This document shows positions 3,812-18,797 of a DNA stretch of 52,225 nucleotides, piece after piece. The stretch lies in the NCBI GenBank assembly GCA_021790995.1, contig JAJYFA010000008.1, positions 1 through 52,225 on the forward strand, in the 5' to 3' direction. A program made the translations under genes and the position numbers. Position 1 is the first letter of the stretch, and every line of letters begins with the position of its first letter. The stretch is from Acidobacteriota bacterium (GTDB taxonomy: Bacteria; Acidobacteriota; Terriglobia; Terriglobales; Acidobacteriaceae). The notes beneath the pieces were generated by a model. That model saw only the letters and a list, made by a program, of their open reading frames with translations, did not search any database and was not told the origin of the DNA.

Positions 3812-4879
3812 TTAAGCTGCTTGTGCGCTCACATATTCCGCTTGAAAAACCTCTCCTTTCTTCCAGATCTTCAGCGTGATGGCGGCGATCTTGCGGGCTA
3901 ACGTGAGCCGCGCCATCTCCGGACGCATGTTCTTGCTGAGCAGCCCGCGATAAAACTCGCCGAAGACGCCCGGCGAAAAGCTGGCCGTGGTGGCCGCGGC
4001 CTTGAAGACATTTTTCAGTTCGTGGTTATGATTCCAGTTCAAGCCGCGAATCTGCGCTGGCCGCTTCTTCCGTTCCAGTTGCCCGTCGACCACGCGATAC
4101 TCGGCGCTGTCGCGGGTCTCCACGCCCAGCCCGCAGTAAGTCCAGAACTGCCGCTTGGTGCGGAAGCGGTGCGGCGTCTGCACACGACCGATCAGCACGG
4201 CTGCGCGCAGTGGACCCAGAAACGGCACCGTTTGCAGCCACCGGGCCGCCGGGTGCTTGCGGCACTCGACGATCAGATCGTGTCGTGCCTGTCGGCGCAG
4301 TTTCTGTAGCGCGTCCAATTGCTGGTAAAGGCACTCGGCGCGGCGCCGCAAAGCGCAAGCGCCGAGTGCCGCCAGATACTCGCCGCGATGCTTGCTCCCA
4401 TATAACTTCTTTCCCGCATAGCCGATCGCCTGGCCCCGAAACACGGCCTTCAACCGCCCCATCACGCGCGTGGTGTCTTCGGTGAGCATCAGGTAACTGC
4501 GCACCAGGTGTTGCACCTCCAACGCGCTGGTCTCACCGTGATAGACCGGCGACAACATATCTGCGCGCAACAACTCGGCCAGCTTGCGCGCATCGATTGC
4601 ATCGCCCTTGTTACCCGACTTCAGCAGCGCGTTCTTGCGCGGATTGCACACCACCAGCTTCTCCACTCGCCGGGACAAAAGATCGTAAAGCCAGGCCGAA
4701 TGGGTGCCTTCTTCAAAGGTCACCCGCACCGTGCCCTGCACTCCGCCGATGAAATCCAGAATCGCCGCCGCCCGCGTCATCAGTACCGACTGCTGGATCA
4801 GCCGGCCGCTCTCGTTGAGTACCGCCGCCGAGATCGTGTCCCGGTGGACATCGAGCCCGATATATCTCACACTGTTCAT
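3812..4879 (-). CDS. IS110-family transposase (DEDD recombinase)
   Basis: The 355-aa protein begins YIGLDVHRDTISAAV, the N-terminal RuvC-like DEDD domain with its first Asp. GNKGDAIDARKLAELLR follows near residue 90. The C-terminal Tnp20-like part includes FRTKRQFWTYCGLGVETRDS and LNWNHNHELKNVFKAAA. Length and both domains are those of a complete IS110 transposase. The ATG at 4879 is preceded by AAGGAGG at a normal distance. No frameshift is seen, so the element may be active. Confidence 0.92.
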   Translation of the reverse strand: MNSVRYIGLDVHRDTISAAVLNESGRLIQQSVLMTRAAAILDFIGGVQGTVRVTFEEGTHSAWLYDLLSRRVEKLVVCNPRKNALLKSGNKGDAIDARKLAELLRADMLSPVYHGETSALEVQHLVRSYLMLTEDTTRVMGRLKAVFRGQAIGYAGKKLYGSKHRGEYLAALGACALRRRAECLYQQLDALQKLRRQARHDLIVECRKHPAARWLQTVPFLGPLRAAVLIGRVQTPHRFRTKRQFWTYCGLGVETRDSAEYRVVDGQLERKKRPAQIRGLNWNHNHELKNVFKAAATTASFSPGVFGEFYRGLLSKNMRPEMARLTLARKIAAITLKIWKKGEVFQAEYVSAQAA

Positions 4880-5879: not shown

Positions 5880-5911
5880 GCCGTGTTTGCCGCAGCTTTG
5901 CGGGACACGGC
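5880..5911 (+). promoter_or_regulatory. Stem-loop in the leader of the small ORF-amt operon
   Basis: GCCGTGT (5880-5886) pairs with ACACGGC (5905-5911), and inside it CCGC pairs with GCGG around a short loop. It ends about 33 nt before the start of the 59-aa ORF. No T-run follows, so a simple terminator is unlikely. A translational or attenuation role is possible but unproven. Confidence 0.35.
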
Positions 5912-5944
5912 TTCCGTGCCGGGCGCGACAGGGAGAGGAAGCGC

Positions 5945-6124
5945 ATGAAGTACGCCGGATTGCTGGTGATGCCAGCGGGATTCTTTCTTACGCTCGCTGC
6001 CCTCGTGCTGTTCGCCGATGCCACGCGGCGGATGGCGTTTGTGCTGTGCGGCCTTGCGGTTGTGGCGCTGGGCCTCGGGGTCGTGGCGCGCGGCCACATG
6101 CCGGTGCGTGGAGCCAGCCGATGA
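5945..6124 (+). CDS. 59-aa two-helix membrane protein coupled to Amt
   Basis: The ORF was below the track cut-off. It reads MKYAGLLVMPAGFFLTLAAL at the start, and a second hydrophobic helix AFVLCGLAVVALGLGVVA follows. GGGAGAGGAAG lies just upstream as ribosome-binding site. Its TGA overlaps the ATG of the amt-like gene (ATGA), which indicates translational coupling. No family was recognised. A small accessory subunit or regulator of the transporter is a reasonable guess but unproven. Confidence 0.65.
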   Translation: MKYAGLLVMPAGFFLTLAALVLFADATRRMAFVLCGLAVVALGLGVVARGHMPVRGASR

Positions 6125-7431
6125 GCGCCGCTGCTCCCATCACACAAGCCCCCGCGGCGGCAATGAGCGAGGCCGTCTTTGCCCTCACGTTTGCCCTGTT
6201 GCTGATTGCGCCGCTGGCGCTGGCCGGCGTGGCCCTGATCAATACCGGACTTGGACGGTCGCGTTCGGCGGCGCAGGCCATGCTGGGCAGTCTTGCGGTC
6301 CTGGCTGTGGCCGCGATTGTCTTTGCCTTCTGGGGCGCGTCGCTGGCGGGCGCGCCCGGAGCGCGGGAGCTTGCGTTTCACGCCGCCGGAAAGAGTTGGG
6401 GCGTTCTGGGGCTTGGGCCGTTGCTGCTGCGCGAGCTTGGATCGGCCGCGCCGCAGAGGCAGCTTGCGCTGCTCTTCGAGTTCCTGGCTGTTGCCATGGC
6501 GGCGATGATTCCGTGGGGCTCGGGCGCCGACCGCTGGCGGCTCGCGGCTGGATGCGCGGCGGCGGCGGTGATCGCGGGCCTGGTGTTTCCTTTGGCGGCG
6601 CACTGGATCTGGGGCGGCGGGTTTCTGGCTGCGCTGGGTGCCAACTTCGGACTGGGAGCGGGAGTTCTCGATGGCGGAGGCGCGGCCACGGTGCATGCGC
6701 TGGGCGGGCTGGCGGCGCTGGCGCTGGCCTGGATCGCGGGACCGCGCAGAGGCAAGTTCCCCAAAGAGGGCCTGTCGACGGCGATGCCGGGCCATAATGC
6801 CATTTATGTTTTGTTCGGCTGCCTGCTCGCGCTCGTGGGGTGGCTTGCGTGGAACGCAGCCGGTGCGGTCATCTGGCTGCATGCGCCCTTGGCGGAGCTG
6901 CCGGGAACGGCTATGAATACATTGCTCTCGGCCGCTGCTGCGCTGCTGATGACCTTTGCCATCACGCGCGTGCGCTTCGGCAAGCCGGATGCGAGTCTCT
7001 GCGCCAACGGATGGCTCGCGGGACTGGTGACCTCGACCGCGTGCGCCGCCGTGGCGACGCCGTTTGAAGCGATCTTCGCCGGAGCCGTGGCGGGAACTGT
7101 GACGCCGCTGCTGGTGGAGTTGCTGGAGCTTGCCCTCTCGATCGACGATCCCTCCGGCGCAATCGCGGTGCACGGCGCCGCGGGACTGTGGGGACTGGTC
7201 GCCGCCGGCTTCTTTGCCGCCCCGAGCGGGCAGCTCGCTGCGCAACTGGTGAGTGTGGCGGCGCAGGTCGGCGTTTTGCTGCCGCTCATTTATCTGCTCT
7301 TCGCGCTGCTCAACCGCGTAGTCGCCTTCCGCGTCGATCCCGATGGCGAACGAATTGGCATGGATCTGCACGAACTGGGCGGCGGAGCCTATCCCGAGTT
7401 CGTGATTCACCGCGACGAATCGTACCGATAA
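6121..7431 (+). CDS. amt: Atypical ammonium transporter (Amt/MEP/Rh family)
   Basis: From the ATG at 6121 the product is 436 aa with about 11 membrane helices. Family marks include AAHWIWGGGFLAALG, then LDGGGAATVHALGG, whose Asp and His sit 8 residues apart like D160/H168 of AmtB. IDDPSGAIAVHGAAGLWG supplies the second pore His. The segment equivalent to AmtB WFGFNAGS reads WLAWNAAG, so the F215 and S219 positions look like W and G. The ORF-track start at 5887 is rejected because it reads through the upstream small ORF. No PII (glnK) gene is adjacent. Substrate could differ from ammonium. Confidence 0.8.
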   Translation: MSAAAPITQAPAAAMSEAVFALTFALLLIAPLALAGVALINTGLGRSRSAAQAMLGSLAVLAVAAIVFAFWGASLAGAPGARELAFHAAGKSWGVLGLGPLLLRELGSAAPQRQLALLFEFLAVAMAAMIPWGSGADRWRLAAGCAAAAVIAGLVFPLAAHWIWGGGFLAALGANFGLGAGVLDGGGAATVHALGGLAALALAWIAGPRRGKFPKEGLSTAMPGHNAIYVLFGCLLALVGWLAWNAAGAVIWLHAPLAELPGTAMNTLLSAAAALLMTFAITRVRFGKPDASLCANGWLAGLVTSTACAAVATPFEAIFAGAVAGTVTPLLVELLELALSIDDPSGAIAVHGAAGLWGLVAAGFFAAPSGQLAAQLVSVAAQVGVLLPLIYLLFALLNRVVAFRVDPDGERIGMDLHELGGGAYPEFVIHRDESYR

Positions 7432-7652: not shown

Positions 7653-7690
7653 GTTTGTGGAGAGCTTGTTTTTGAGCAAGGAAGGTGCGC

Positions 7691-9001
7691 GTGAGTGTAG
7701 GGGAGCAGTTGCGGGAGATGTGGCGGCAGGCGCGTGGCGGCGGACGATACGGTCGCGGCGCGGATACGCGGGCCGCGGAGCTGGCGGCGGCAACCGAGGC
7801 GGAGCGCAAGACGCTGGCTATGCCCGCGATCCTGAGTCCTGTGCAGTTTCCGGGGCGGCACCTGCCGAAGCCGACGCCGATGAATCTGCGGCGGTTTGCG
7901 GAGACGCCCGTGGTGCGGCGCGCGATCAACGTGATCAAAGATCGCATTGCGGCGATGGACTGGCAGGTGCGGGTGCGGCGTGGTGTGGAGCCTGGGGATG
8001 TGTCGTTTCAGGCGCGGAAATTGCGGGCGTTGCGGCGGGTGCTTGAGGAGCCGAATCCGACGGACAGCTTCAGGACATTGATTGAGCAGGCGATTGAGGA
8101 TGCGTTGACGGGCGGCTATGGAGCAATCGAGATGGAGCCGACGGGCGATCCGGAACGGCCAGCGATGTTGTGGTCCGTGGATGGAGCTTCGATCCGCATC
8201 AACGCCAAGTGGGACGGGCAGGAAGACATGCCGCGTTACGCGCAGGCAGTGGCGGGGCAACTTGAGTCGAGCGCGGTGGAACTGCTCGACAGGCAGTTGA
8301 TGTACATCCGTATGAACCCGCGGAGTTTTACGCCATTCGGACTGGGACCGCTGGAGGTAGCGTTCGAGACGGTGAATCAGTTTTTGAGTGCGCACCGCTT
8401 TGCGGGGAAGTTGGCGGCAAACTCGGTGGCGCAGTATGCGCTGTGGCTGAACGAGGCCACGCCAGCGCAGCACGACCGGCTGATCCGCTGGTGGCAGGAC
8501 GAGATCGAGGGCACGGGAAGGGTGCCGCTGCTCTCGACCGAGCAGAAGCCGGAGGTGCTGCGATTTGCGCAGGGTACAGACGCGGATCTGCGACTGGCAT
8601 GGCAGGAGTTCCTGATCCGGATGGTGGCGAACGCTTTTGGATTGCCGCCGTTGATGCTGGGGCTCGAGGCCGATGTGAATCAATCGACGGCCTCGGAGAT
8701 GGCGGATGAGGCGTTCCGAGGAGCGATTTCTCCGCTGGCGCTGCTGCTGGCGCAGCACATTACGCGGGACCTGTTTGGGAAGTGTGTCGGCTGGCGCGAG
8801 TTCGAGTTTGTCTTCAACGAGCTGAGCGCACGGGACGAGATGACGGAGTTGCAGGTGCAGGTGCAACTGCTTCAGGCTGGCGTACTGACGGTAAACGAGG
8901 TTCGGGCCATGCGGGGGCTGGCGCCGATGGAGGCAGGGATCGGGGAGCAGGGGTCAGTTGAACACCAGGGCAAACCCAGATTCCTGAAACCTTGTCCCTG
9001 A
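7691..9001 (+). CDS. Phage portal protein
   Basis: The roughly 436-aa product fits HK97-type portal proteins, the dodecameric channel for DNA entry at the capsid vertex. Seen are VVRRAINVIKDRIAAMDWQV near the N-terminus, DALTGGYGAIEME, the long hydrophilic stem region, and FGLPPLMLGLEADVNQSTAS near residue 330, typical of portals. GTG 7691 is preferred over GTG 7685 because AAGGA then lies at a proper distance. It is the first gene of the virion cassette; no terminase gene precedes it. The last residues are encoded by a 7-bp repeat array, suggesting an altered C-terminus. Confidence 0.85.
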   Translation: MSVGEQLREMWRQARGGGRYGRGADTRAAELAAATEAERKTLAMPAILSPVQFPGRHLPKPTPMNLRRFAETPVVRRAINVIKDRIAAMDWQVRVRRGVEPGDVSFQARKLRALRRVLEEPNPTDSFRTLIEQAIEDALTGGYGAIEMEPTGDPERPAMLWSVDGASIRINAKWDGQEDMPRYAQAVAGQLESSAVELLDRQLMYIRMNPRSFTPFGLGPLEVAFETVNQFLSAHRFAGKLAANSVAQYALWLNEATPAQHDRLIRWWQDEIEGTGRVPLLSTEQKPEVLRFAQGTDADLRLAWQEFLIRMVANAFGLPPLMLGLEADVNQSTASEMADEAFRGAISPLALLLAQHITRDLFGKCVGWREFEFVFNELSARDEMTELQVQVQLLQAGVLTVNEVRAMRGLAPMEAGIGEQGSVEHQGKPRFLKPCP

Positions 9002-9007
9002 ACCCTA
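8979..9007. repeat. Heptamer array at the portal 3' end
   Basis: ATTCCTG AAACCTT GTCCCTG AACCCTA is a run of 7-bp units of the CCTGAAN kind. It overlaps the final codons and stop of the portal gene. It belongs to the same repeat family as the arrays in the downstream gaps. Confidence 0.65.
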
Positions 9008-9020
9008 GCGAACGGAGCGA

Positions 9021-9530
9021 ATGACGATGCGACTGGAAGCGATGGCGGTGGAGATTCCTCATGTGGACAAGCACCCGAACCGGGTGCCGTTCGAGGGCGT
9101 GTTGACGGTGGTGAATGCGGCCAGCGACAGGGCTCCGGCGGGAGCGCGAGGGCATCGCGTGATGCTGACGAAGGATGCGACGGAGAAGGGGCTGGCGTCG
9201 CTGGTAGGCATGGCGGTGGATTACCGGCCCGGATGGGACGGGCACGACGCGCGGCGCAAGATCGGCCTGCTGACCGAGGCGAATGTCATTGGGCAGCGTC
9301 TGATGGTGCGCGGGTATCTCTACGCGCGCGACTTTCCCGAGGTGGCGGAGGCGATTGCGGCCCAGGCGCCGGGGGCAATGGGGATGAGCTACGAGCTGGC
9401 AGATGCGCACGTGGAAGACATGCGGGCCGAAGTGTGGAAGCTGACGCGCGTGACTTTTACCGGAGCGGCGATTTTGCTGCGCGACAAGGCAGCTTATCGG
9501 GCGACTAGTTTTCGGATGCGGCGGAGTTAG
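9021..9530 (+). CDS. Prohead (capsid maturation) protease
   Basis: The 169-aa product looks like a phage prohead serine protease. It has GHRVMLTKDATEKGLASLVG, then GHDARRKIG with the likely catalytic His, then GAMGMSYELAD with the likely catalytic Ser. FTGAAILLRDKAAYRATSF closes the domain. Such enzymes cleave scaffold and capsid during maturation. GGAG precedes the ATG. Position between portal and capsid genes fits the standard order. A clear intrinsic terminator follows the gene. Confidence 0.75.
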   Translation: MTMRLEAMAVEIPHVDKHPNRVPFEGVLTVVNAASDRAPAGARGHRVMLTKDATEKGLASLVGMAVDYRPGWDGHDARRKIGLLTEANVIGQRLMVRGYLYARDFPEVAEAIAAQAPGAMGMSYELADAHVEDMRAEVWKLTRVTFTGAAILLRDKAAYRATSFRMRRS

Positions 9531-9561
9531 AAAAGGCAGCAAGTCGGCGAGTTAGCCAATG

Positions 9562-9590
9562 AGGCTCCGAGCGGCGGGGCCTTTTTTATT
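9562..9590 (+). terminator. Intrinsic terminator after the protease gene
   Basis: AGGCTCCG (9562-9569) pairs with CGGGGCCT (9575-9582), one G-T pair included, around AGCGG, followed by a T-run (9582-9587). This is a textbook rho-independent shape. It divides the cassette into a portal-protease unit and a downstream unit that would need its own promoter or read-through. Confidence 0.8.
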
Positions 9591-9678
9591 GACTGGAAAA
9601 GCAGGAAAGAAGCGGGCAAGAAGCGCGGTTTGCAGAGTCTCTTTGCAAACGGGTTTGCCGGGGCGCCAAGGAGCCGAT

Positions 9679-9706
9679 CACTTACCGCTTACCACTTATC
9701 ACTGAA
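9679..9706. repeat. Heptamer array before the scaffold-like gene
   Basis: CACTTAC CGCTTAC CACTTAT CACTGAA are four 7-bp units in register, placed just ahead of the ribosome-binding site of the next gene. The unit differs from the GGNNTCA type, but the 7-bp periodicity is the same. Confidence 0.6.
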
Positions 9707-9718
9707 GAAAGGAAGGAC

Positions 9719-10117
9719 ATGGAAAACGAGGAGAAGAGCGTTGTCGAGCGGCTGGAAGCCGCGACTGCCTTGCTTGAAGGTGCGCTGAACTGGCTGGAAG
9801 AACGCCAAGGCGCGCTGTCGGGCGAGGTGGAGAGAATCTCGGCCACGGTGGAGCAGAGCCGGCGGGAGGCTGAACTGGTCGAGAAGCTGGCAGCGGCCGA
9901 GCAGGAGTTGGCCGAGTTGAAAGCCGCATCGGCGCAGAATGTGCTGACCCCTATACGCCGGACTATGCCCGCGGCAACGGCGGAGATGCTGGCCAAGCAC
10001 GGCATCGGCGAAGGGCCGGTGGATGTGCGCGCGCTGGATGCGGCGCTCGCGGGGCTAAGCCTGGAACAGCGCATCGCGGTGAAGACGCAACTGCAGCGGG
10101 CAGGCGCGATTTCCTAA
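9719..10117 (+). CDS. Coiled-coil protein, probable capsid scaffold
   Basis: The 132-aa protein is rich in Glu, Ala and Leu, with long heptad-like helices (ERLEAATALLEGALNWLEER and EKLAAAEQELAELKAA). It has no enzymatic motif. Size, charge and place between protease and major capsid gene are those of a phage scaffolding protein, which shapes the procapsid and is then removed. AAAGGAAGG precedes the ATG. The assignment rests on position and composition, not on homology. Confidence 0.5.
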   Translation: MENEEKSVVERLEAATALLEGALNWLEERQGALSGEVERISATVEQSRREAELVEKLAAAEQELAELKAASAQNVLTPIRRTMPAATAEMLAKHGIGEGPVDVRALDAALAGLSLEQRIAVKTQLQRAGAIS

Positions 10118-10120
10118 AGA

Positions 10121-10212
10121 CAGGGATCAGGTTTCAGGGGTCATGGATCAGATTTGTCAATCTGTTCCTTGCTACGGGCCACTGAACCCTGACGACTGAA
10201 ACCTGAAACCTT
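10121..10212. repeat. Heptamer arrays with complementary arms before the capsid gene
   Basis: The left part reads GGGATCA GGTTTCA GGGGTCA TGGATCA; the right part reads CACTGAA CCCTGAC GACTGAA ACCTGAA ACC. GGNNTCA on one side and TGANNCC on the other can pair, so the gap could fold into a large imperfect hairpin. Confidence 0.75.
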
Positions 10213-10247
10213 TTAACCACGGCCCCATGGAGGGGGCGGAGAGAGCT

Positions 10248-11228
10248 ATGAACGCAACCTTTGCAGATATTCACGCGGCAGCGGATTTCATTGGGCCGGG
10301 TGCAGTTGAAGTCCCGTTATATCAGACGGAGATCTTCGATATTTGCCGCCGGTCGAGCCCCTTCGGGCAACGCATCAAGCAGGTACCGGCGACGGGCCAT
10401 CCCTCACGGTTCTTCGAGGAGACGGCGATTCCCAATCCGGGCACGGCCGGCTTTGTGAATCCGCGTAGCATTTCGCCCACGGTGGTCAGTCCGACGCGCA
10501 TCGAGCTGAGCGTACCGCTGAAAGCGATTGTGGCGCAGATCAACTACAACCTGTTCGACATCGAGCTGGGGGACCAGCAGAAGCAGTTCGCCTACTTGCA
10601 GGCCAAGGATCTGGTGGATACGGTGAGCGGCGTGATGGTGACGCACGACGTGGCGCTGTGGCAGGGCAATGACACCAGCCTGAGCTCGCCCACGACTACT
10701 CAATACATGGGATGTGCGGCGCAGATCGCGGGCAGCGGTAACACGGTGACTGTAGCCACATCGATGAAGATCGTGGACACGATCAAGACCACGATCGCGC
10801 AAATGGTGGCCAACACAAATTATCGTGTGCGGCCGACGGCCATCTATGCCAACCCGGTGCTGCTCGATCTGATCGACCAGGAGATGAAGAGCGACTACAA
10901 CGTGGTGCTGAATACCGACCAGATCACAGGCGGATTCCGCGTGAAGATGTTGTCGACGCAGGCAGGCGATCTGCCGCTGATTCCTGACTGGAGCCTGCCG
11001 TATACGCCTGGAAGCGGTTCCGGTTCCAGTTACGTGCCGGGCAGCTATCCGGCCTACATCGTCACCGAGGATTTGATCGAGTATCACTGGCTCGGCGATC
11101 CGGCTCCGCGCATCTTCCAGCTCGGTCTGCCGAATTCGATGACTTACCAGTACGTTGCGGTCAAGTTCGGAGCGCCGGTGGTCAAAGGCGCGAACTTTGC
11201 GCACTACCAGGTGATTGTGGAGCGGTAG
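10248..11228 (+). CDS. Putative major capsid protein
   Basis: From ATG 10248 (GGAGAGAG upstream) the product is 326 aa. It follows the scaffold-like gene and precedes the connector genes, the usual place of the HK97-fold capsid subunit. Visible features are an N-terminal helix, a long beta-rich middle, TAIYANPVLLDLIDQEMKSD as in capsid A-domains, and a C-terminal strand region SMTYQYVAVKFGAPVV. Assignment is by synteny and general character; I do not recognise a named subfamily. It carries no visible decay. Confidence 0.65.
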   Translation: MNATFADIHAAADFIGPGAVEVPLYQTEIFDICRRSSPFGQRIKQVPATGHPSRFFEETAIPNPGTAGFVNPRSISPTVVSPTRIELSVPLKAIVAQINYNLFDIELGDQQKQFAYLQAKDLVDTVSGVMVTHDVALWQGNDTSLSSPTTTQYMGCAAQIAGSGNTVTVATSMKIVDTIKTTIAQMVANTNYRVRPTAIYANPVLLDLIDQEMKSDYNVVLNTDQITGGFRVKMLSTQAGDLPLIPDWSLPYTPGSGSGSSYVPGSYPAYIVTEDLIEYHWLGDPAPRIFQLGLPNSMTYQYVAVKFGAPVVKGANFAHYQVIVER

Positions 11229-11232
11229 GAAA

Positions 11233-11354
11233 GACAGGGGTCAGGTTTCAGGAATCAGCGGTCAGGGGCGGACCAGCCAGCAACTCGCCTGAACGGCTTT
11301 CGACACCCGAACTCTGAGATCTGAACCCTGAACCCTGACACCTGAACTCTGAGG
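11233..11354. repeat. Heptamer arrays between capsid and connector genes
   Basis: GGGGTCA GGTTTCA GGAATCA GCGGTCA GGGG lies near the capsid stop. GATCTGA ACCCTGA ACCCTGA CACCTGA ACTCTGA lies near the next start and runs into the GAGGAG ribosome-binding site. The arms are complementary in type. Confidence 0.8.
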
Positions 11355-11362
11355 AGATCTTT

Positions 11363-11986
11363 ATGGCTTATCTTGAGCCAGCGGATTACATGAATTACGG
11401 ATTGCCTGCCGGGACCACGGCGGACTGGATTACGGCCGCTACGGCATTGATCAACAGCTACTGCCGGCGGCCGGACCTGAATGTGGTGCAGTACGTGGAG
11501 CGCCTGCGAGTGGTTGCGGGAGCGCATACGGTGGTGCTGAGCTATCTGCCGCTAGCTGTCCTGGCGCCGGCTACATCGCCGCTCGTTGGCATCCAGGGCC
11601 GCTACACATGGCCGCGGCGCGGTGCTGTTTTGCCCGAGCCGGTGAACGAGATGGTGTGGGCGTTTGCGCTGCCAGGACAGTGGACTGCGATCGATCCGAC
11701 GCTGGTGGACTTCGATCCAGCGACCGGCGAACTGACGCTGCCGGTGAATGTGTTGTGGCTGCCTTACAACGAAGTCCAGGTCACGTATACGGCCGGTCTG
11801 ACGACGATCGGCGACGACGTGAAGTCGGCGTGCGCGCAGATCGTGCGCAACGCTCAGGCTACGCCAGCGCTGAACGCCAGCATGACGCGGGTCGACACGA
11901 TGTGGGTGAAGTATTTCTCAAGTTCGTTGATCGACGAGACTGTGCAGGAGTGGCTGAAGCCGTACGTGGCAAGCCGGCTGGGATAA
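11363..11986 (+). CDS. Head-tail connector (gp6-like adaptor)
   Basis: The 207-aa protein begins with a helical segment (YLEPADYMNYGLPAGTTADW followed by an INSYCRRPDLN stretch) resembling phage adaptor proteins that stack on the portal. It continues with a beta region, and helices return near DDVKSACAQIVRNAQATPAL. SD is GAGGAG. Location straight after the capsid gene fits an adaptor. Similarity is moderate; function is by analogy. Confidence 0.55.
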   Translation: MAYLEPADYMNYGLPAGTTADWITAATALINSYCRRPDLNVVQYVERLRVVAGAHTVVLSYLPLAVLAPATSPLVGIQGRYTWPRRGAVLPEPVNEMVWAFALPGQWTAIDPTLVDFDPATGELTLPVNVLWLPYNEVQVTYTAGLTTIGDDVKSACAQIVRNAQATPALNASMTRVDTMWVKYFSSSLIDETVQEWLKPYVASRLG

Positions 11987-11989
11987 AGG

Positions 11990-12066
11990 CAGGTTTCAGG
12001 GATTAGGGATCAGGACGCATGGTGACGAGATTACTTTCGTCTGAACCCAGCCACCTGAAGCCTGTT
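11990..12066. repeat. Heptamer arrays in the gap after the adaptor gene
   Basis: GGTTTCA GGGATTA GGGATCA GGA is on the left. TCTGAACCCAGCCACCTGAAGCCTG is on the right. It is weaker and shorter than neighbouring arrays but of the same consensus. Confidence 0.65.
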
Positions 12067-12088
12067 CACTGGAAAATGGGAGCGAGTT

Positions 12089-12523
12089 ATGAGCGATACG
12101 GAGCCGCGCCGCCCGAGAGGTGCGCCGCAGATGCTGGCCGACGCCCTGCTGCGCAACGCGGCGGGTACCACGGCGTTCTTTCGTGTGACCGGCGTGAGCA
12201 CAGACACCGTCACATCGGAGGTAGGGCTGGTGGCCACGACCTTTGCGGAGGTTCCAGTGAGTCCGGCGGTGATGCGACGAGTGGAGCCTGGCTGGAAGGA
12301 AGGCGGGCAGACGAAGTGGGAGTTGCTGGTATCAGCCACTGGCGTCGAGCAGCAGGTGAACGCGCTGAATCTCGCGTCGGCGCAGTCGCTGTTTGCCATG
12401 GCGCTGGCGGTGACGGTGGGCGAGCAAGACTACCTGATCGAATCCATCTCCTCGAATGAGGCATTTGGACAGGTGTACATTTACCGGCTGCTGTTGCGCG
12501 AGGCGCGGCAGCAAGGGGTGTGA
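12089..12523 (+). CDS. Small virion protein, possible head-tail stopper
   Basis: The 144-aa protein has no motif I recognise. It is a mixed alpha/beta protein ending in YLIESISSNEAFGQVYIYRL. GGGAGCGAG precedes the ATG. It lies between the adaptor and a second connector-sized gene, where stopper or head-completion proteins are normally encoded. Function is inferred from gene order only. Confidence 0.4.
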   Translation: MSDTEPRRPRGAPQMLADALLRNAAGTTAFFRVTGVSTDTVTSEVGLVATTFAEVPVSPAVMRRVEPGWKEGGQTKWELLVSATGVEQQVNALNLASAQSLFAMALAVTVGEQDYLIESISSNEAFGQVYIYRLLLREARQQGV

Positions 12524-12527
12524 GAGC

Positions 12528-12671
12528 AGGTTTTAGAGGTCAGGTTTCAGGGTCGAGCGGCCCAATCGACTCGTGGTCAAGATTGCGCGGGCCGGAAAGG
12601 TGGACGGGAAGCAAGGAGCAGAGGTTGGGAGGCGTTTTTCTGGTCCCTGGCCCTGCCCCCTGTTCCCTGTT
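12528..12671. repeat. Two heptamer arrays before the next connector gene
   Basis: GGTTTTA GAGGTCA GGTTTCA GGGTC follows the previous stop. CTGGTCC CTGGCCC TGCCCCC TGTTCCC TGTTG ends 4 bases before ATG 12675. The second array argues that the upstream in-frame start at 12573 is not used. Confidence 0.65.
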
Positions 12672-12674
12672 GTT

Positions 12675-13160
12675 ATGCAGAACGCAAAAGACTCGTTTTA
12701 TATGGCGCTGCGCACGCGCCTGTCAGCCATCAACCCGGAGCGGACGATTCTGCTGCGTGGCGCAGTGCGGCCGGGAATTCTGGTGGAAGAAGCCGAAGCG
12801 CCCTACGCGCAACTTCCCGACGATGTGTTCATTTTGCGCTGGATGGGGCTGGCGACGGACGTGGAACTTGCCGCAACGATGGCGGCCGAACAGTGCGAGA
12901 TCGTCTACCAGACCTGCGGAACGCAGGGCTTTGGCGGGCTGGATCGCGGGCGCGCGCTCAGCCAGATGGATAAAGAGCTGCTGGGGATGCTGCAGCCGTT
13001 CTCGACGCCGAAGCTCAATTACACGGCGACTCCGCCGGCTGCTATGCTGACGCAGATCTTCTGGGACGAGCCGGTTTTTGGGCCGGTGACGATCAACCGT
13101 GACCGGCTGAGCCGTGCGGCGATTGTGACGATGTACAGCTACGAGGAGCCGGGGGAGTGA
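12675..13160 (+). CDS. Small virion protein, possible tail terminator or completion protein
   Basis: From ATG 12675 the product is 161 aa. The longer track ORF starts inside low-complexity repeat DNA and is rejected. The protein has MQNAKDSFYMALRTRLSAIN at the N-terminus and a C-terminal TINRDRLSRAAIVTMYSYEE. No family was recognised. It sits directly before the tail-tube-like gene, the usual place of a tail terminator. No clear ribosome-binding site is visible because the repeat occupies it. Confidence 0.4.
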   Translation: MQNAKDSFYMALRTRLSAINPERTILLRGAVRPGILVEEAEAPYAQLPDDVFILRWMGLATDVELAATMAAEQCEIVYQTCGTQGFGGLDRGRALSQMDKELLGMLQPFSTPKLNYTATPPAAMLTQIFWDEPVFGPVTINRDRLSRAAIVTMYSYEEPGE

Positions 13161-13169
13161 AGGCTTCGC

Positions 13170-13279
13170 CAGGAATCAGGTTTCAGGGGTCAGATTTCAG
13201 TTTTCGGTATCACGCAGATGGTGGGAGATTGCCGATCACTGTTCACAGACCCCTGATGCCTGAAACCTGATCTCCAGAG
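13170..13279. repeat. Heptamer arrays before the tail-tube-like gene
   Basis: GGAATCA GGTTTCA GGGGTCA GATTTCA is on the left and CCCCTGA TGCCTGA AACCTGA TCTCC on the right. The arms form one of the clearest complementary pairs in the cassette (AATCAGGTTTCAGG against CCTGAAACCTGAT, for instance). Confidence 0.8.
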
Positions 13280-13285
13280 GATTTC

Positions 13286-14395
13286 GTGATGACAGCAACA
13301 TGGTTTTCCGCTCCGGCGCCGGTGGCGCGGCGGGTGCGCGCCTATTTTGCGCCCGTGAATCGAGCCGCGCAGGCGCCGGTGCTCTTCGATCCATCGCAGC
13401 AGAGTGGGTTCAATCTGGATGCGCCGCCCGTGCCGTGGATCGACCTGGGATGGATCCAGAATTTCGTGCGCACGTCGCAGAGCCAGTCGGCGCCTCTGCT
13501 CACGGGCATTCCGGCCGCAGCTCTCGAACAGGTGCGGCAAACGCTCGAGGCGCAGGTGAGCCTGGAGTTTTTGAGCTGGACCAAGCTGACGATGGCGTTG
13601 GCGACCGGATCGCAACACATGAATGTGCTGGCCGTGGCAAGCGGCGCCACGGCAGCGGCCGACGGGGCGCAGGCTGTGGCTGCCGTCGTGCCGCAGAGCG
13701 GTTCGACCAGCACATCCATTTTGCTTGCGTCGTCGGACGCAGCCAAGTTCACTGCGGGCTCGATTGTTGCGGTGGACGTGGATTACACGGGTCAGACGGG
13801 CTATGTGGGCAGTCCGGTGGCAGGCGCGTATGTGAGGGGGGCGTTGACAGATGTAGATTACATCCGGCGCGTGACTTTCAATGTGGCGCTGGCGGCCGAA
13901 ACCAGCTCCAGCGGATTGACGCTGGCTTCTCCGCTGCCCGGAGGCGCGCCGGCCACAGGCGCAAAGGTGCAGCCCGTCGTGGGCTTTGTGGATCGCGAAG
14001 GCGGCAGCTTTTACCAGGAGTGGTCGGCGCTGTTTGTGATGCAGGGCAGCCAGGGAGAGCGAATCATCTTTCACTATCCGCGACTGCAACCGGCAATTAG
14101 CGGTGAAGAAACAGTGTTGCCGCTCGATGAACGGGCAGCCCCTTCGCGTCGCAATGCGGGCGGCAGGGCGACGGTGCATGTAGCTCAAATGTCACAGGCA
14201 GCAGGAAAGCGCGGCACTCAGGATGCGGTTCACCGCTCCGTCTCGGTACACCAAGCCTCGGGAAATTCCATCAATGGTCAGTCGCGCGTCCTGCTCAAGG
14301 CGCAGTTCATGGCGCTGCCGGTGACGGATCCTCTCGATGGGGAGCGGGTGGTTTGCTACAGGAGCTTTGTGCCTGCGCCGAATGCTCTGGTGTGA
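13286..14395 (+). CDS. Putative major tail (tube) protein
   Basis: The 369-aa product (GTG 13286 or ATG 13289) starts with RVRAYFAPVNRAAQAPVLFD and PPVPWIDLGWIQNF. It is rich in beta structure, with Ala/Gly/Ser-rich loops and a FLSWTKLTMALATGSQHMN helix region. This resembles siphophage tail-tube proteins in size and layout, and its place after the connector genes agrees. The segment near residues 285-325 is unusually basic and could mark an old frameshift or insertion, but the frame is intact to the stop. Confidence 0.5.
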   Translation: MMTATWFSAPAPVARRVRAYFAPVNRAAQAPVLFDPSQQSGFNLDAPPVPWIDLGWIQNFVRTSQSQSAPLLTGIPAAALEQVRQTLEAQVSLEFLSWTKLTMALATGSQHMNVLAVASGATAAADGAQAVAAVVPQSGSTSTSILLASSDAAKFTAGSIVAVDVDYTGQTGYVGSPVAGAYVRGALTDVDYIRRVTFNVALAAETSSSGLTLASPLPGGAPATGAKVQPVVGFVDREGGSFYQEWSALFVMQGSQGERIIFHYPRLQPAISGEETVLPLDERAAPSRRNAGGRATVHVAQMSQAAGKRGTQDAVHRSVSVHQASGNSINGQSRVLLKAQFMALPVTDPLDGERVVCYRSFVPAPNALV

Positions 14396-14430
14396 GAAGG
14401 CAGGAATTGGAACTGCGGGACTACGAAAAC

Positions 14431-14467
14431 ATTCGACCACGAACCACTGACCATGATTCACGAGAAA
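14431..14467. repeat. Heptamer array before the tail hub gene
   Basis: ATTCGAC CACGAAC CACTGAC CATGATT CACGAGA shows 7-bp periodicity right up to the next start. It is more diverged than the GGNNTCA arrays. Confidence 0.5.
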
Positions 14468-14471
14468 CACA

Positions 14472-16781
14472 ATGAAGATTACGATCCAAGGGCAGGACTA
14501 CACGGTGGCGCTCGATGCCGCGCGTCCGTTGACGATCGAGCGGAAGATGAATGAGCCTTCCGTCTGCCAGCTGTGGCTGAGCCTCGCCGCCAATGGGAGC
14601 CTCGCTGCGCCCGCGCGTTACCAGACGCTCGCGGTGACGGGCGACGACGGCACGCAATATTTCACGGGATACATCGCGGTGAGCCCGCTGCCGGAGTACG
14701 CGGGGATGGGCCTTGAAGGTCCGCGCTATCGCACGGCGATCCAGGCCGTGAGCGATGAGTGGCTGCTTGACCTGGCGCTGATGCCGCCGAACATCAGCCT
14801 TAGCAACCTGACCGCGGGCCAGGTGCTGGCTCTGCTCATCGAAGAGTCCGGCTCGGCGGCGCTCACTTCCACGGGGCTCACTCTCGGAACGCCGCTTGGC
14901 AGCTTTGCCCCCGAGCACGGCGCGAGCTGGAGCAGGAGCGCCGGTGAGGCTGCAAACATGGCGCGGGCCGCTTATCGCGCTCTCAACGGGACTGTTTTGC
15001 TCAACTCCGTGCAGTCGACGGTGCATCCGCTCAACGAGACCGATGGCAGCCTGAATCTTGCCGACCTTTCGCTTACCAGCGGCGTGAAGCGCGGGCTGGC
15101 GAACGATGTGACGGTGTGTGGCGAAGAAGAGCCTGTGGTGTATGTGACGGAGTATTTTCTGGGCGACGGCGCGACAACGTATTTTGTTTTGTCGGAGGAC
15201 CCGTACTTTCAACCCGCATCGAGGACGATTCTGATCTACGAGCTCTTCAACGGGCCGGGGATCGATCCTGTGCTTTGGTCGGTGAACGGCAAAAGTTACT
15301 TTAGCCTGGGCGCCAACGGCCTCACCGTCAACGGCGGCAACGGCTACGACGGGCAGACCACGCTTGCCTGGCTCAATCCCATCGAGATGGGCGGCACGCT
15401 GCTGCTTGAGTTGGTTGGCGTAACGCTTGCCGCGGGCAGCACGGGTATTCTGGGGGGATTTTTCAACGGATTGCCGGCTGCGGCCGATTGTGCCGTGGGC
15501 TTCCAGGCTATGGCGCAGCAAGGCACAGGGACCGTGACGCTGCAACCGATCATCATGGGCTCGGCAGCGGGTTCCACCTTTGCGGTGAATTCCGCCAATG
15601 AGTACACGCTGCGCATCCGCATTCATTGCCCCGAGAGCAATCGTGCCGGGGCGATGTTCTACTCCTACGGAGACAACGGACTGATCGGCGTGGGCGGCGC
15701 ATGGGTGATGGCTCCGGGCAAGATTCAGATGGAGGTGCAGGAGTTCGTCAACGGTGTTGGCGCTACGCCCGTCACGCTTTACGACGGCGGGATCGCGAAT
15801 CTTCCCGCGCCCTGCAATCTGATTCCGGTCAGCAGCATGGATATGACGGGCACGATCCGCGCCATTCATCTGACCGATATGGGATCGGGCTGGGTGGTGA
15901 GCACGCCGCCCAGCAGCGGCGCTTACACGCGGCGTATCGGCCCGACGGAGGTGGCAGGCGAATGCCACGTCGAGCGCACGGGCAGGCTCGTCTTCTACAC
16001 CGGATACACGCCGGTTGCAGGCGAGCAGATTGCGGTGAGTTACCGCACCATCCGGCGCGCCGTGGGACGCGCCGTGAACACCGCCAGCCAGCAGGCGCTC
16101 GAGCAGGCGGGATCGCCGTGGTCGGCGGCGTGGATTGGATCAGTGACCAGGCCGCCGGCGCGCAGTTCGGAAGATTGCCGTAATGCGGCGCAGGTGATGG
16201 CGCAGGCCGCGGCCAGCGTGAGCGCGCTGTGGAGCGGGACGTATAAGGGGAACCGCACGAGCTTTGCCAGCGACGTGTGGCCGGGCGATGCGCTGCTTCT
16301 CAACGCGCCTTCAACGAATCTCGACGCGCAGGTGGTGGTGCGCGCGGTCAAGTTGAGTTATGGCGCGAGCTCGCCCGATCTTGTGGACTACGAGATCGCT
16401 TTTGCAAACGACTGGGCCGACGACCTGGCGATCAAAACCAGCACGGTGGTGCCGGCCAAGACATGGCTTCCAGCTCCGGTAAATCCCACCTGTCTCGCGA
16501 ACCTGAACAATCTCTCCGTGACGGCGCTCAGCGGCAGTACGGTGACGGTGAATACGGGCGTTGTGCCACCTGCCGGCGGCGGCTTCGAGGTTCGCCTGCG
16601 CGACTACTCGTTCCAGGCCGGCGAAGATCCGACGCTGGTGCTGCGCGGTTCCGGGCAGACGCTTACGTTCACGCGGGTCTCGGCAAGCGACCGGTTTTAT
16701 ATACGGATGTACGACGGCTCCACGCCGCCGAATTACTCGGAGTTTTCCGCGGCGCTGTTTATCAATTTGCCGCTGGGATAA
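14472..16781 (+). CDS. Large tail hub or host-recognition protein
   Basis: The 769-aa protein starts MKITIQGQDYTVALDAARPL, continues with a baseplate-hub-like region, and contains a Gly-rich beta region near residues 255-450 that could be a lectin-like insert. A second hub-like region follows (AVSYRTIRRAVGRAVNTASQ, then SDVWPGDALLLNAPS and LVDYEIAFANDWADD). It ends in a beta-sandwich domain of FN3 type (about 675-769). These traits fit a tail tip protein contacting the host. No tape-measure gene precedes it. It is the largest gene in the cassette and is intact. Confidence 0.55.
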   Translation: MKITIQGQDYTVALDAARPLTIERKMNEPSVCQLWLSLAANGSLAAPARYQTLAVTGDDGTQYFTGYIAVSPLPEYAGMGLEGPRYRTAIQAVSDEWLLDLALMPPNISLSNLTAGQVLALLIEESGSAALTSTGLTLGTPLGSFAPEHGASWSRSAGEAANMARAAYRALNGTVLLNSVQSTVHPLNETDGSLNLADLSLTSGVKRGLANDVTVCGEEEPVVYVTEYFLGDGATTYFVLSEDPYFQPASRTILIYELFNGPGIDPVLWSVNGKSYFSLGANGLTVNGGNGYDGQTTLAWLNPIEMGGTLLLELVGVTLAAGSTGILGGFFNGLPAAADCAVGFQAMAQQGTGTVTLQPIIMGSAAGSTFAVNSANEYTLRIRIHCPESNRAGAMFYSYGDNGLIGVGGAWVMAPGKIQMEVQEFVNGVGATPVTLYDGGIANLPAPCNLIPVSSMDMTGTIRAIHLTDMGSGWVVSTPPSSGAYTRRIGPTEVAGECHVERTGRLVFYTGYTPVAGEQIAVSYRTIRRAVGRAVNTASQQALEQAGSPWSAAWIGSVTRPPARSSEDCRNAAQVMAQAAASVSALWSGTYKGNRTSFASDVWPGDALLLNAPSTNLDAQVVVRAVKLSYGASSPDLVDYEIAFANDWADDLAIKTSTVVPAKTWLPAPVNPTCLANLNNLSVTALSGSTVTVNTGVVPPAGGGFEVRLRDYSFQAGEDPTLVLRGSGQTLTFTRVSASDRFYIRMYDGSTPPNYSEFSAALFINLPLG

Positions 16782-16782
16782 T

Positions 16783-16876
16783 GAGCGAGTCAGCAGATCA
16801 GCGAGCAAGAAGGTTGGCGGGTTGGCGAGCCTGCGGTTGAGTGATTTCTGACTTCTGATCCCTGAACCCTGCTCGG
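16783..16876. repeat. Heptamer arrays after the hub gene
   Basis: The left part (GAGCGAG TCAGCAG ATCAGCG AGCAAGA AGGTTGG) is diverged. The right part TTTCTGA CTTCTGA TCCCTGA ACCCTGC is a clean four-unit array ending at the GGGAG ribosome-binding site of the next gene. Confidence 0.65.
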
Positions 16877-16884
16877 GAGTGTAC

Positions 16885-17112
16885 ATGCGCATGATGAATG
16901 AATTCGAAGCCCAGGTACTGAGCGATCTGAGTGTGTTGAAGTCGCAGATGAACAGTCTGATGGGCGACGGCAACGGCGGGCGCCTGGGCGATCTGGAGCG
17001 GCGCATGGACCGTCACGAGCAGAACTGGCAGCGCGCCAAAGGATTTCTGGCCGCGGTCAGCGTGGTGTTCGCCGTGCTCGAGGTTGCCGTGGAGGCGTGG
17101 CGCCGGCACTAA
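16885..17112 (+). CDS. Holin-like small membrane protein with coiled coil
   Basis: The roughly 75-aa protein has an N-terminal amphipathic helix (FEAQVLSDLSVLKSQMNSLM), a charged linker DLERRMDRHEQNW, and one C-terminal hydrophobic helix AKGFLAAVSVVFAVLEVAV. This is the layout of XhlA-like phage membrane proteins tied to lysis. ATG 16885 is chosen over GTG 16879 because GGGAG lies 6 nt before it. No endolysin gene accompanies it. It ends the cassette; its TAA touches the purE region. Confidence 0.55.
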   Translation: MRMMNEFEAQVLSDLSVLKSQMNSLMGDGNGGRLGDLERRMDRHEQNWQRAKGFLAAVSVVFAVLEVAVEAWRRH

Positions 17113-17118
17113 ATGGCG

Positions 17119-17151
17119 TTCAAGCCAAGTGAATCTTCGTATAATCTCCCC
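17119..17151 (+). promoter_or_regulatory. Candidate promoter of purEK giving a leaderless mRNA
   Basis: TATAAT at 17140-17145 ends 6 nt before ATG 17152, with a weak TTCAAG-like -35 region about 16 bp upstream. A transcript starting about 7 nt after the -10 box would begin at or next to the ATG, leaving no ribosome-binding site. None is visible either. Confidence 0.45.
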
Positions 17152-17655
17152 ATGAGCCAACAACCGCTGGTCGGCGTTGTGATGGGCAGCAAGAGCGACT
17201 ACGAGACGCTCTCGCCAGCCGTGGAGATTCTGACCATCCTCGAAATTCCTCATGAAGCGCGCATTGTGAGTGCGCACCGCACGCCCGATTGGCTTTTTCG
17301 CTACGCGGAGACGGCGCGCGAGCGTGGCCTGTGCGCGATCATCGCCGGGGCCGGCGGCGCGGCGCATCTGCCCGGCATGCTGGCGGCCAAGACGCTGGTT
17401 CCCGTGCTTGGCGTGCCTGTTCCCGCAACCCAACTGAATGGCCTCGATTCGCTGCTTTCGATTGTGCAGATGCCCAAGGGCGTTCCCGTGGGTACATTCG
17501 CCATCGGCAAGGCGGGCGCGGCTAATGCCGCACTGTTTGCCGCGGAGATTCTGGCCGCGACCGACGCGACACTCTACGAGCGGTTGGCTGCGTGGCGCGC
17601 CGCGCGCACCCAGGAAGTACTCGACCAGACACTGGGCGAGGAACCGTCGAAGTGA
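17152..17655 (+). CDS. purE: N5-carboxyaminoimidazole ribonucleotide mutase (PurE class I)
   Basis: The 167-aa product carries VVMGSKSDYETL at the N-terminus, SAHRTPDWLF with the catalytic His near residue 45-50, and AGAGGAAHLPGMLAAKT, all hallmarks of PurE. It converts N5-CAIR, made by PurK, to CAIR in purine synthesis. The track start at 17113 would abut the previous stop, lacks a Shine-Dalgarno and adds residues not typical of PurE, so ATG 17152 is preferred. It overlaps purK by 4 nt. Confidence 0.93.
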   Translation: MSQQPLVGVVMGSKSDYETLSPAVEILTILEIPHEARIVSAHRTPDWLFRYAETARERGLCAIIAGAGGAAHLPGMLAAKTLVPVLGVPVPATQLNGLDSLLSIVQMPKGVPVGTFAIGKAGAANAALFAAEILAATDATLYERLAAWRAARTQEVLDQTLGEEPSK

Positions 17656-18797
17656 CTGGCTCATCTGTTCTGAAACCCGAAAAAACTTTGCTTGCCATTC
17701 TTGGTGGCGGCCAATTGGGCCGCATGACGGCGATGGCTGCGCGCACCATGGGGTATCGCGTGCGCGTGATGGACCCCGAGGCATCCTGCCCGGCGAGCTT
17801 TGTTGTCGATGAGACCATTGTGGGCCGCTGGGACGATGTCGATGCGGCGCGGAGGCTGGCCACGGGCGCCGATGTGGTCACGCTCGAGATTGAGCAGATT
17901 GGCGTCGACGCTCTGCGCGTGGTTGAGAGCCTGGCGCCGCTTCGTCCCGGCGTCGAGCCCATCCGCATCATTCAAGACAAGACATTGCAGAAACCCTGGC
18001 TCGCCGAGAACGGTTTTCCCGTGGGATCGTTTCGCGTGGCGCGAAGCGAAGACGGGCTGCGCGAGGCGGTGACTGCGCTCGGCGGTGACGTGTTTGTGAA
18101 GACCGGCCGCGGCGGCTACGACGGCCGCGGCCAGGTGCGCATCCAGCCGAATGACGGCGCCGATCTTGGTGTTGCGTGGCGCGCGCTGGGCGAGCGTCCC
18201 GCGGTCGTCGAAAAAGCCCTTGACCTCGACTGCGAGATCAGCGTGATGGCCGCGCGCAGTCCGTCGGGCGAAGTGCGCGCTTTCCCGGCAGCGCGCAATC
18301 ATCACGAAAATCAGATTCTGGCCTGGAGCGTGCTGCCGGCCGGCGTTGCGCCGGAGATGGAAGCCCGCGCCGAAGCCCTTGCCGCGGAGATGGTGGCAAA
18401 GCTCAACCTGGTGGGTTTGCTCTGCGCCGAACTCTTCGTTACGCGCGCGGGCGAGATCTTTGTGAATGAGCTTGCGCCGCGTCCGCACAACAGCTACCAC
18501 CAGAGCGAGCGGGGGTGCGCGACCAGCCAGTTCGAGCAACTGGTGCGCGCGGTGTGCGATCTGCCGCTGGGTTCGGCGGAGCTGATTGCGCCGTGCGCGA
18601 TCGCCAATCTACTTGGCGATCTGTGGCTGGGCAAGGATCCCGATTTTGCCGCGGCTCTCGCGGTGCCGGGCGTGCGTTTGCACTTGTACGAGAAGCACAC
18701 GCCGCGAGCGGGGCGGAAGATGGGGCACTTGTCGGCGGTGGGGGCGACGGCGGAAGAGGCGCTGGAGCGGGTGTTGGAGGCGAAGCGGCGGATTTAG
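17652..18797 (+). CDS. purK: N5-carboxyaminoimidazole ribonucleotide synthase (PurK)
   Basis: The product is 381 aa from GTG 17652, whose GTGA overlaps the purE stop. AILGGGQLGRMTAMAA is the N-terminal nucleotide-binding loop. The ATP-grasp domain includes QDKTLQKPWL, FVKTGRGGYDGRGQ and NELAPRPHNSYHQSE. PurK ligates bicarbonate to AIR using ATP and hands the product to PurE. Length and motifs are complete. The upstream start at 17592 lies inside purE and is rejected. Confidence 0.93.
   Translation: MTGSSVLKPEKTLLAILGGGQLGRMTAMAARTMGYRVRVMDPEASCPASFVVDETIVGRWDDVDAARRLATGADVVTLEIEQIGVDALRVVESLAPLRPGVEPIRIIQDKTLQKPWLAENGFPVGSFRVARSEDGLREAVTALGGDVFVKTGRGGYDGRGQVRIQPNDGADLGVAWRALGERPAVVEKALDLDCEISVMAARSPSGEVRAFPAARNHHENQILAWSVLPAGVAPEMEARAEALAAEMVAKLNLVGLLCAELFVTRAGEIFVNELAPRPHNSYHQSERGCATSQFEQLVRAVCDLPLGSAELIAPCAIANLLGDLWLGKDPDFAAALAVPGVRLHLYEKHTPRAGRKMGHLSAVGATAEEALERVLEAKRRI

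Follow-up and report, generated by a model that had tools for sequence, protein, structure and literature searches.

In the gene transfer agent of Rhodobacter capsulatus (RcGTA; Rhodogtaviriformidae), the genes run in the order terminase, portal, protease, capsid, adaptor, neck, tube, and hub. RcGTA is endogenised and vertically inherited, and its genes are distributed over several loci (PMC9662315). Gene transfer agents (GTAs) are defined by six criteria: proteins derived from Caudoviricetes, endogenisation, mostly vertical inheritance, a genome that is not fully packageable, packaging of mostly random host DNA, and delivery of that DNA (Kogay et al. 2022, PMC9662315). According to the same 2022 classification, experimentally established GTAs occur in alphaproteobacteria, a deltaproteobacterium, a spirochete, and a methanogen. 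No GTA in Acidobacteriota was found in the literature searched, which was without bioRxiv and included few subscription papers. A related locus is listed as a predicted prophage, “Cluster 153”, at Terracidiphilus gabretensis contig_10, 700-740 kb (Eichorst et al. 2018, PMC5900883). This interval contains the cassette considered here (L090, spanning 715148-736125), and the accessible portion of that paper describes no vertical inheritance, purifying selection, terminase relocation, or sister viral group for it. The cassette is most likely part of an undescribed GTA-like system in the Acidobacteriaceae, which are among the most abundant soil groups.

The window is the whole stretch of DNA analysed, 52,225 nt in length; it lies on contig 256 of a 4.15-Mb genome assembly (94% complete, 263 contigs). 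Reading of its ORFs, together with family matches, confirms the preliminary description of ten intact same-strand genes flanked by amt and purEK. The cassette (7685-17112, + strand) has no internal stops, contains no terminase, integrase, or endolysin, and has a GC content of 62.1%, versus 61.2% in the rest of the window. The cassette genes and their flanks are as follows:

5887..7431, + strand: amt, host flank outside the cassette (PF00909, E=1.8e-62)
7685..9001, + strand: portal protein, 438 aa (PF04860, E=1.2e-54; phrog_2662, E=7e-38)
9021..9530, + strand: prohead-protease-like protein, 169 aa (position; homology to part of a sister-viral ORF)
9719..10117, + strand: scaffold-like coiled-coil protein, 132 aa (position ahead of the capsid)
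10227..11228, + strand: major capsid protein (weak match to phrog_264, E=0.0014; gene order; homology to viral capsids)
11363..11986, + strand: head-tail adaptor, 207 aa (phrog_442, E=2.1e-14)
12089..12523, + strand: neck protein, 144 aa (position between adaptor and terminator)
12573..13160, + strand: second neck protein, tail-terminator-like (weak HMM matches; position)
13286..14395, + strand: tail tube protein, 369 aa (AlphaFold pLDDT 76; Foldseek)
14472..16781, + strand: tail hub with an inserted lectin/lyase-like beta-sandwich, 769 aa (AlphaFold pLDDT 88; Foldseek)
16879..17112, + strand: small membrane protein, 77 aa, with a C-terminal hydrophobic stretch and holin- or XhlA-like topology (no family match)
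17113..18797, + strand: purE and purK, host flanks (purK by PF02222 and PF17769; purE read from its own sequence)

The protease-like protein is without a Pfam match and is presumed to have protease activity; it matches part of a 490-520 aa ORF in the portal-capsid interval of sister viral contigs, and in several of these contigs the protease-like and scaffold-like HMMs match one ORF, a fused gene. Comparison with relatives suggests that the true start of the capsid gene is likely the ATG at 10248, and that of the 12573 ORF likely the ATG at 12675, which would give a protein of 161 aa; its start, MQNAKDSFY, is conserved among relatives. The adaptor profile matches the adaptor gp8 of phage Mycofy1 (E=4e-4). 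The 144-aa neck protein is probably a stopper and has weak HMM matches in two sister viral contigs, whereas the putative terminator weakly matches the ORF immediately before the tube in two others (L328 and L338). AlphaFold models of the tube and hub were built from alignments of relatives. The tube model resembles siphophage tubes (Mystique, E=1.3e-7; SPR; YSD1; chi; Foldseek probability 1.0), supporting its prediction as a siphophage-type tail tube. The hub model resembles Mu gp44, VgrG, and contractile-injection hubs (E to 8.7e-8) as well as alginate-lyase/lectin folds, supporting a predicted hub of the Mu gp44/VgrG type. Profile searches of the PDB with the tube, hub, and terminator-like protein returned nothing useful. 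The last ORF had been called holin-like; its single C-terminal hydrophobic stretch may fit that name, but no Pfam or PHROG family matches it. It is 83-91% identical to its close relatives, with dN/dS of 0.06-0.13.

The cassette is widespread in one family. The capsid is present in 98 of 150 genomes of the order, always as a single copy and with 63-89% identity, and all of these genomes are Acidobacteriaceae, as are the named cassette-bearing relatives; the possibility, raised earlier, that relatives would all lack it can be set aside. A capsid profile search of 396 genomes of the phylum matched 40, again only Acidobacteriaceae. At every one of the 52 named loci that have all ten genes, these lie collinearly on a single strand, and this identity of content and order excludes chance. 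Linkage to purEK is common though not universal (at 35 of 51 named loci no more than 1.5 kb separates purE from the last cassette gene), whereas amt, the other half of the synteny proposed in the preliminary description, was not seen beside the cassette at any relative's locus. Gene order is permuted in some cassettes (L126, L131, L045, L177, L178, L181), which run from the protease-like gene to the tube and then to a large protein, TerL, HipA, and DUF3037; in L045, a locus that reaches that far, the portal comes after DUF3037.

All ten genes are under purifying selection (NG86 dN/dS 0.06-0.24, window vs nearest relatives; portal 0.06-0.12 vs close relatives), in a range similar to that of purE/purK (0.09-0.19) and far below the value near 1 that relaxed selection would give. 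Across 50-odd genomes, in-frame stops occur only at alignment ends, with the exception of one hub (G103). For nine genes, protein distances are correlated with the distances of dxr, an unlinked marker located on a different contig from the capsid (Mantel r 0.78-0.92; 0 of 2000 permutations), and genus groups are largely recovered in both the capsid and dxr trees. The cassette is old and intact, and selection maintains it in roughly two thirds of the Acidobacteriaceae sampled. It probably encodes a host-inherited, domesticated phage-like particle that would package DNA and work like a GTA. Because about a third of the order is without the cassette, it is dispensable, a point that counts against this reading.

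The cassettes sit in the interior of large contigs of the host or of chromosomes assembled as a single contig (G096, G111, G085, G082), with host genes on both sides. It is very improbable that they belong to a still-mobile prophage or phage-satellite family whose integration functions are supplied elsewhere, although one such locus appears in Eichorst 2018 (PMC5900883) as a prophage predicted by VirSorter/PHASTER, and IMG/VR lists cassette contigs as viral. That idea, already weak, is opposed by several observations: each genome has one copy, the trees agree with that of the host, the edges on either side are host genes, and the modules remain intact although split across the chromosome. An intact temperate prophage would have its own integrase, repressor, and replication genes, and none were seen in four 40-kb stretches plus the window, in which translations were read and few flanking ORFs were HMM-scanned. 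Nor is there a complete prophage of the same type elsewhere in the window's own genome, which has a single capsid copy.

A 500-aa terminase (TerL) lies upstream of the portal in 38 of the 47 named loci whose upstream sequence is long enough, and in most loci genes for a HipA_2 kinase-like and a DUF3037 protein come next. The lack of a terminase is therefore true of this cassette but is not a family trait, as the gene is adjacent in most relatives. The TerL profile matches the T4 gp17 nuclease (E=2.5e-13), and D360, E415, and D498 are invariant. The gene ahead of TerL usually encodes a very large protein, which resembles pectate lyases in some genomes and includes a GDSL lipase in another; its N terminus is sometimes signal-like. 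Among the 150 genomes, TerL and the capsid occur together in 96, the capsid alone in two (the window's genome and one remnant), TerL alone in five (three of them fragments), and neither in 47; thus the two co-occur in 96 of the 103 genomes that have either.

The packaging module has moved in the window's subclade. In G142, a block of spike, TerL, HipA, and DUF3037 adjoins cysS on a contig separate from the head genes; in G002 (L163), TerL adjoins smc, with HipA and DUF3037 absent nearby. Both unlinked TerL genes are intact and lie within housekeeping contigs, and distances to contig ends place the two modules, adjacent in most relatives, at least ~75 kb apart in G142 and at least 64 kb apart in G002. 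HipA and DUF3037 may be dispensable or regulatory, given the G002 TerL without them. Four other genomes (G092, G129, G136, G141) are ambiguous as split cases, and G093 was dropped, as its contigs break between DUF3037 and the portal. An IS110-family transposase (PF01548; window 3812-4879, - strand) lies upstream of amt and may be connected with the rearrangement by which the head and packaging modules came apart.

The distant terminase anticipated in the preliminary description is thus present in these two relatives and only partly traceable in the window's own genome. There, DUF3037 and a HipA truncated by the contig end lie beside a dxr gene on contig C17; because the contig stops within HipA, where TerL should follow, TerL is expected just past that end, in an assembly gap. 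TerL protein searches did not find TerL in this assembly; they were used in place of a Terminase_6N search, which matched nothing in the own genome but also fails on a relative's TerL. The G142 spike as query gave no match in the own genome, in a search without a positive control. TerL could instead have been lost, which would count against the domesticated particle. Its absence from the assembly is one of two observations that might suggest a decaying prophage relic on its way out in the window species, the other being a real remnant in G066 from which the portal to most of the capsid has been deleted. Decay would bring broken genes and relaxed selection, yet the window has ten open frames with dN/dS of ~0.1 vs its nearest relatives, and HipA-DUF3037 is kept on a contig that ends where TerL should follow. 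Such decay is accordingly judged highly unlikely. A stable relic, the other option first proposed, is disfavoured by the same open frames and dN/dS and by the host-congruent trees; the selection, vertical inheritance, and unlinked TerL favour a domesticated particle with packaging genes elsewhere. In the G066 remnant (L180, G066:C4:2428000-2447900), the later genes persist beside purEK.

Three of the six published GTA criteria (PMC9662315) describe this system, and those about packaged DNA and its delivery concern particles, whereas only genes were read here. The proteins are Caudoviricetes-derived (PF04860 portal, gp17-like TerL, tube/hub folds, related viral contigs); the genes are fully endogenised in host-contig interiors, with a second locus in G142 and G002; and inheritance is mostly vertical with host co-diversification, as the Mantel correlations and the genus-level agreement of capsid and dxr indicate. 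The spacing of the two modules in G142 and G002 bears on whether the genome fits into one particle, although in most relatives the modules adjoin. The cassette is therefore most likely GTA-like and is not filed as a proven member of the GTAs. The Acidobacteriaceae system shares with RcGTA its head-tail gene order, endogenisation, vertical inheritance, and several loci, and its portal is weakly similar to Rcc01684 (E=0.0019). In contrast to RcGTA, it is without a tape measure, its packaging operon includes a HipA-like kinase and DUF3037, and it belongs to a different phylum. The homology of TerL and capsid to RcGTA that would mark membership of the Rhodogtaviriformidae was not found, as no RcGTA chain in the PDB was matched by the Acidobacteriaceae capsid, TerL, adaptor, tube, or hub profiles; the PDB may lack the RcGTA TerL.

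A domesticated particle might also have another job: it might kill competitors, hinder incoming phages, or deliver some cargo that is not random DNA. This is unlikely, but the evidence for selection and inheritance fits it equally, the hub has a sugar-binding-type domain, and without a tape measure DNA injection via a normal tail is uncertain. On the other hand, the portal, capsid, and TerL with intact catalytic residues have been kept, and TerL and capsid co-occur; a headless killer needs none of these parts. Of the two functions first suggested, GTA-like is thus favoured and bacteriocin-like less likely, because portal, capsid, and packaging motor are retained. Two further points count against the GTA-like reading: neither a lysis enzyme nor a tape measure was found, and a full-size head might have room for the entire cluster, given that sister viral contigs reach 131 kb.

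As a GTA-like particle, the system would have arisen when an Acidobacteriaceae ancestor captured a phage virion module and then domesticated it. The host would pass the module on vertically and build tailed, DNA-filled particles, possibly switched on through the HipA-like kinase and its DUF3037 partner in the packaging module. The protease and scaffold would shape the head, and the terminase would load a headful of host DNA via the portal. Adaptor, neck, short tube, and hub with its sugar-binding-type domain would form a stub tail; its spike may be the large protein, pectate-lyase-like, whose gene precedes the terminase. Cells would then lyse, and the particle would bring DNA to kin. If true, this would add a phylum to those with GTAs and, across much of the Acidobacteriaceae, a route of soil gene exchange. 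Clean genetic tests are possible in genomes whose terminase is unlinked.

The capsid matches no INPHARED isolate, but searching IMG/VR with the capsid profile recovered viral contigs as long as 131 kb (many of 50-130 kb), whose capsids are 46-52% identical. These contigs (L320-L339) share the cassette's gene order, with homologues of its portal, protease-scaffold, capsid, adaptor, and tube, and they form a sister clade in the capsid tree (support 100/100), in which host branches are shorter. They differ from the cassette in having a larger portal, a protease and scaffold that are often one ORF, and two small tail chaperone-like ORFs after the tube, followed in L330 by a tape measure (phrog_8462, E=3.7e-23). 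In the cassette the tube runs straight to the hub, so the chaperone-like/tape-measure genes were lost or the hub was gained separately. As candidate viral relatives, these contigs allow steps of domestication (e.g., tape measure loss and the protease/scaffold split) to be compared directly. Other “viral” contigs in IMG/VR (L031-L047, L316-L318) are cassette copies like those of host genomes; IMG/VR and soil prophage counts include such host genes, which are a source of false virus counts in soil.

A solitary capsid gene occurs in four further viral contigs of 74-214 kb (L048:1495-2385, L049:10001-10966, L050:10001-10966, L319:8001-8966), with almost no other cassette gene. These capsids are 60-64% identical to the window's and form long branches inside a Granulicella-type host clade, but three AU tests did not reject a basal position (p 0.21-0.39). 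Possibly, phages captured a host particle gene. A broader and unlikely proposal is that the system is an independent GTA lineage dating from the base of the Acidobacteriaceae, in which the tape measure was lost, a stub tail injects, a HipA-type kinase gates the system, repeated relocation of the motor is tolerated, and large phages have captured the capsid, possibly poisoning particle assembly. Genes for a phage ligase, kinase, or helicase are present on two of the solitary-capsid contigs, L048 and L049.
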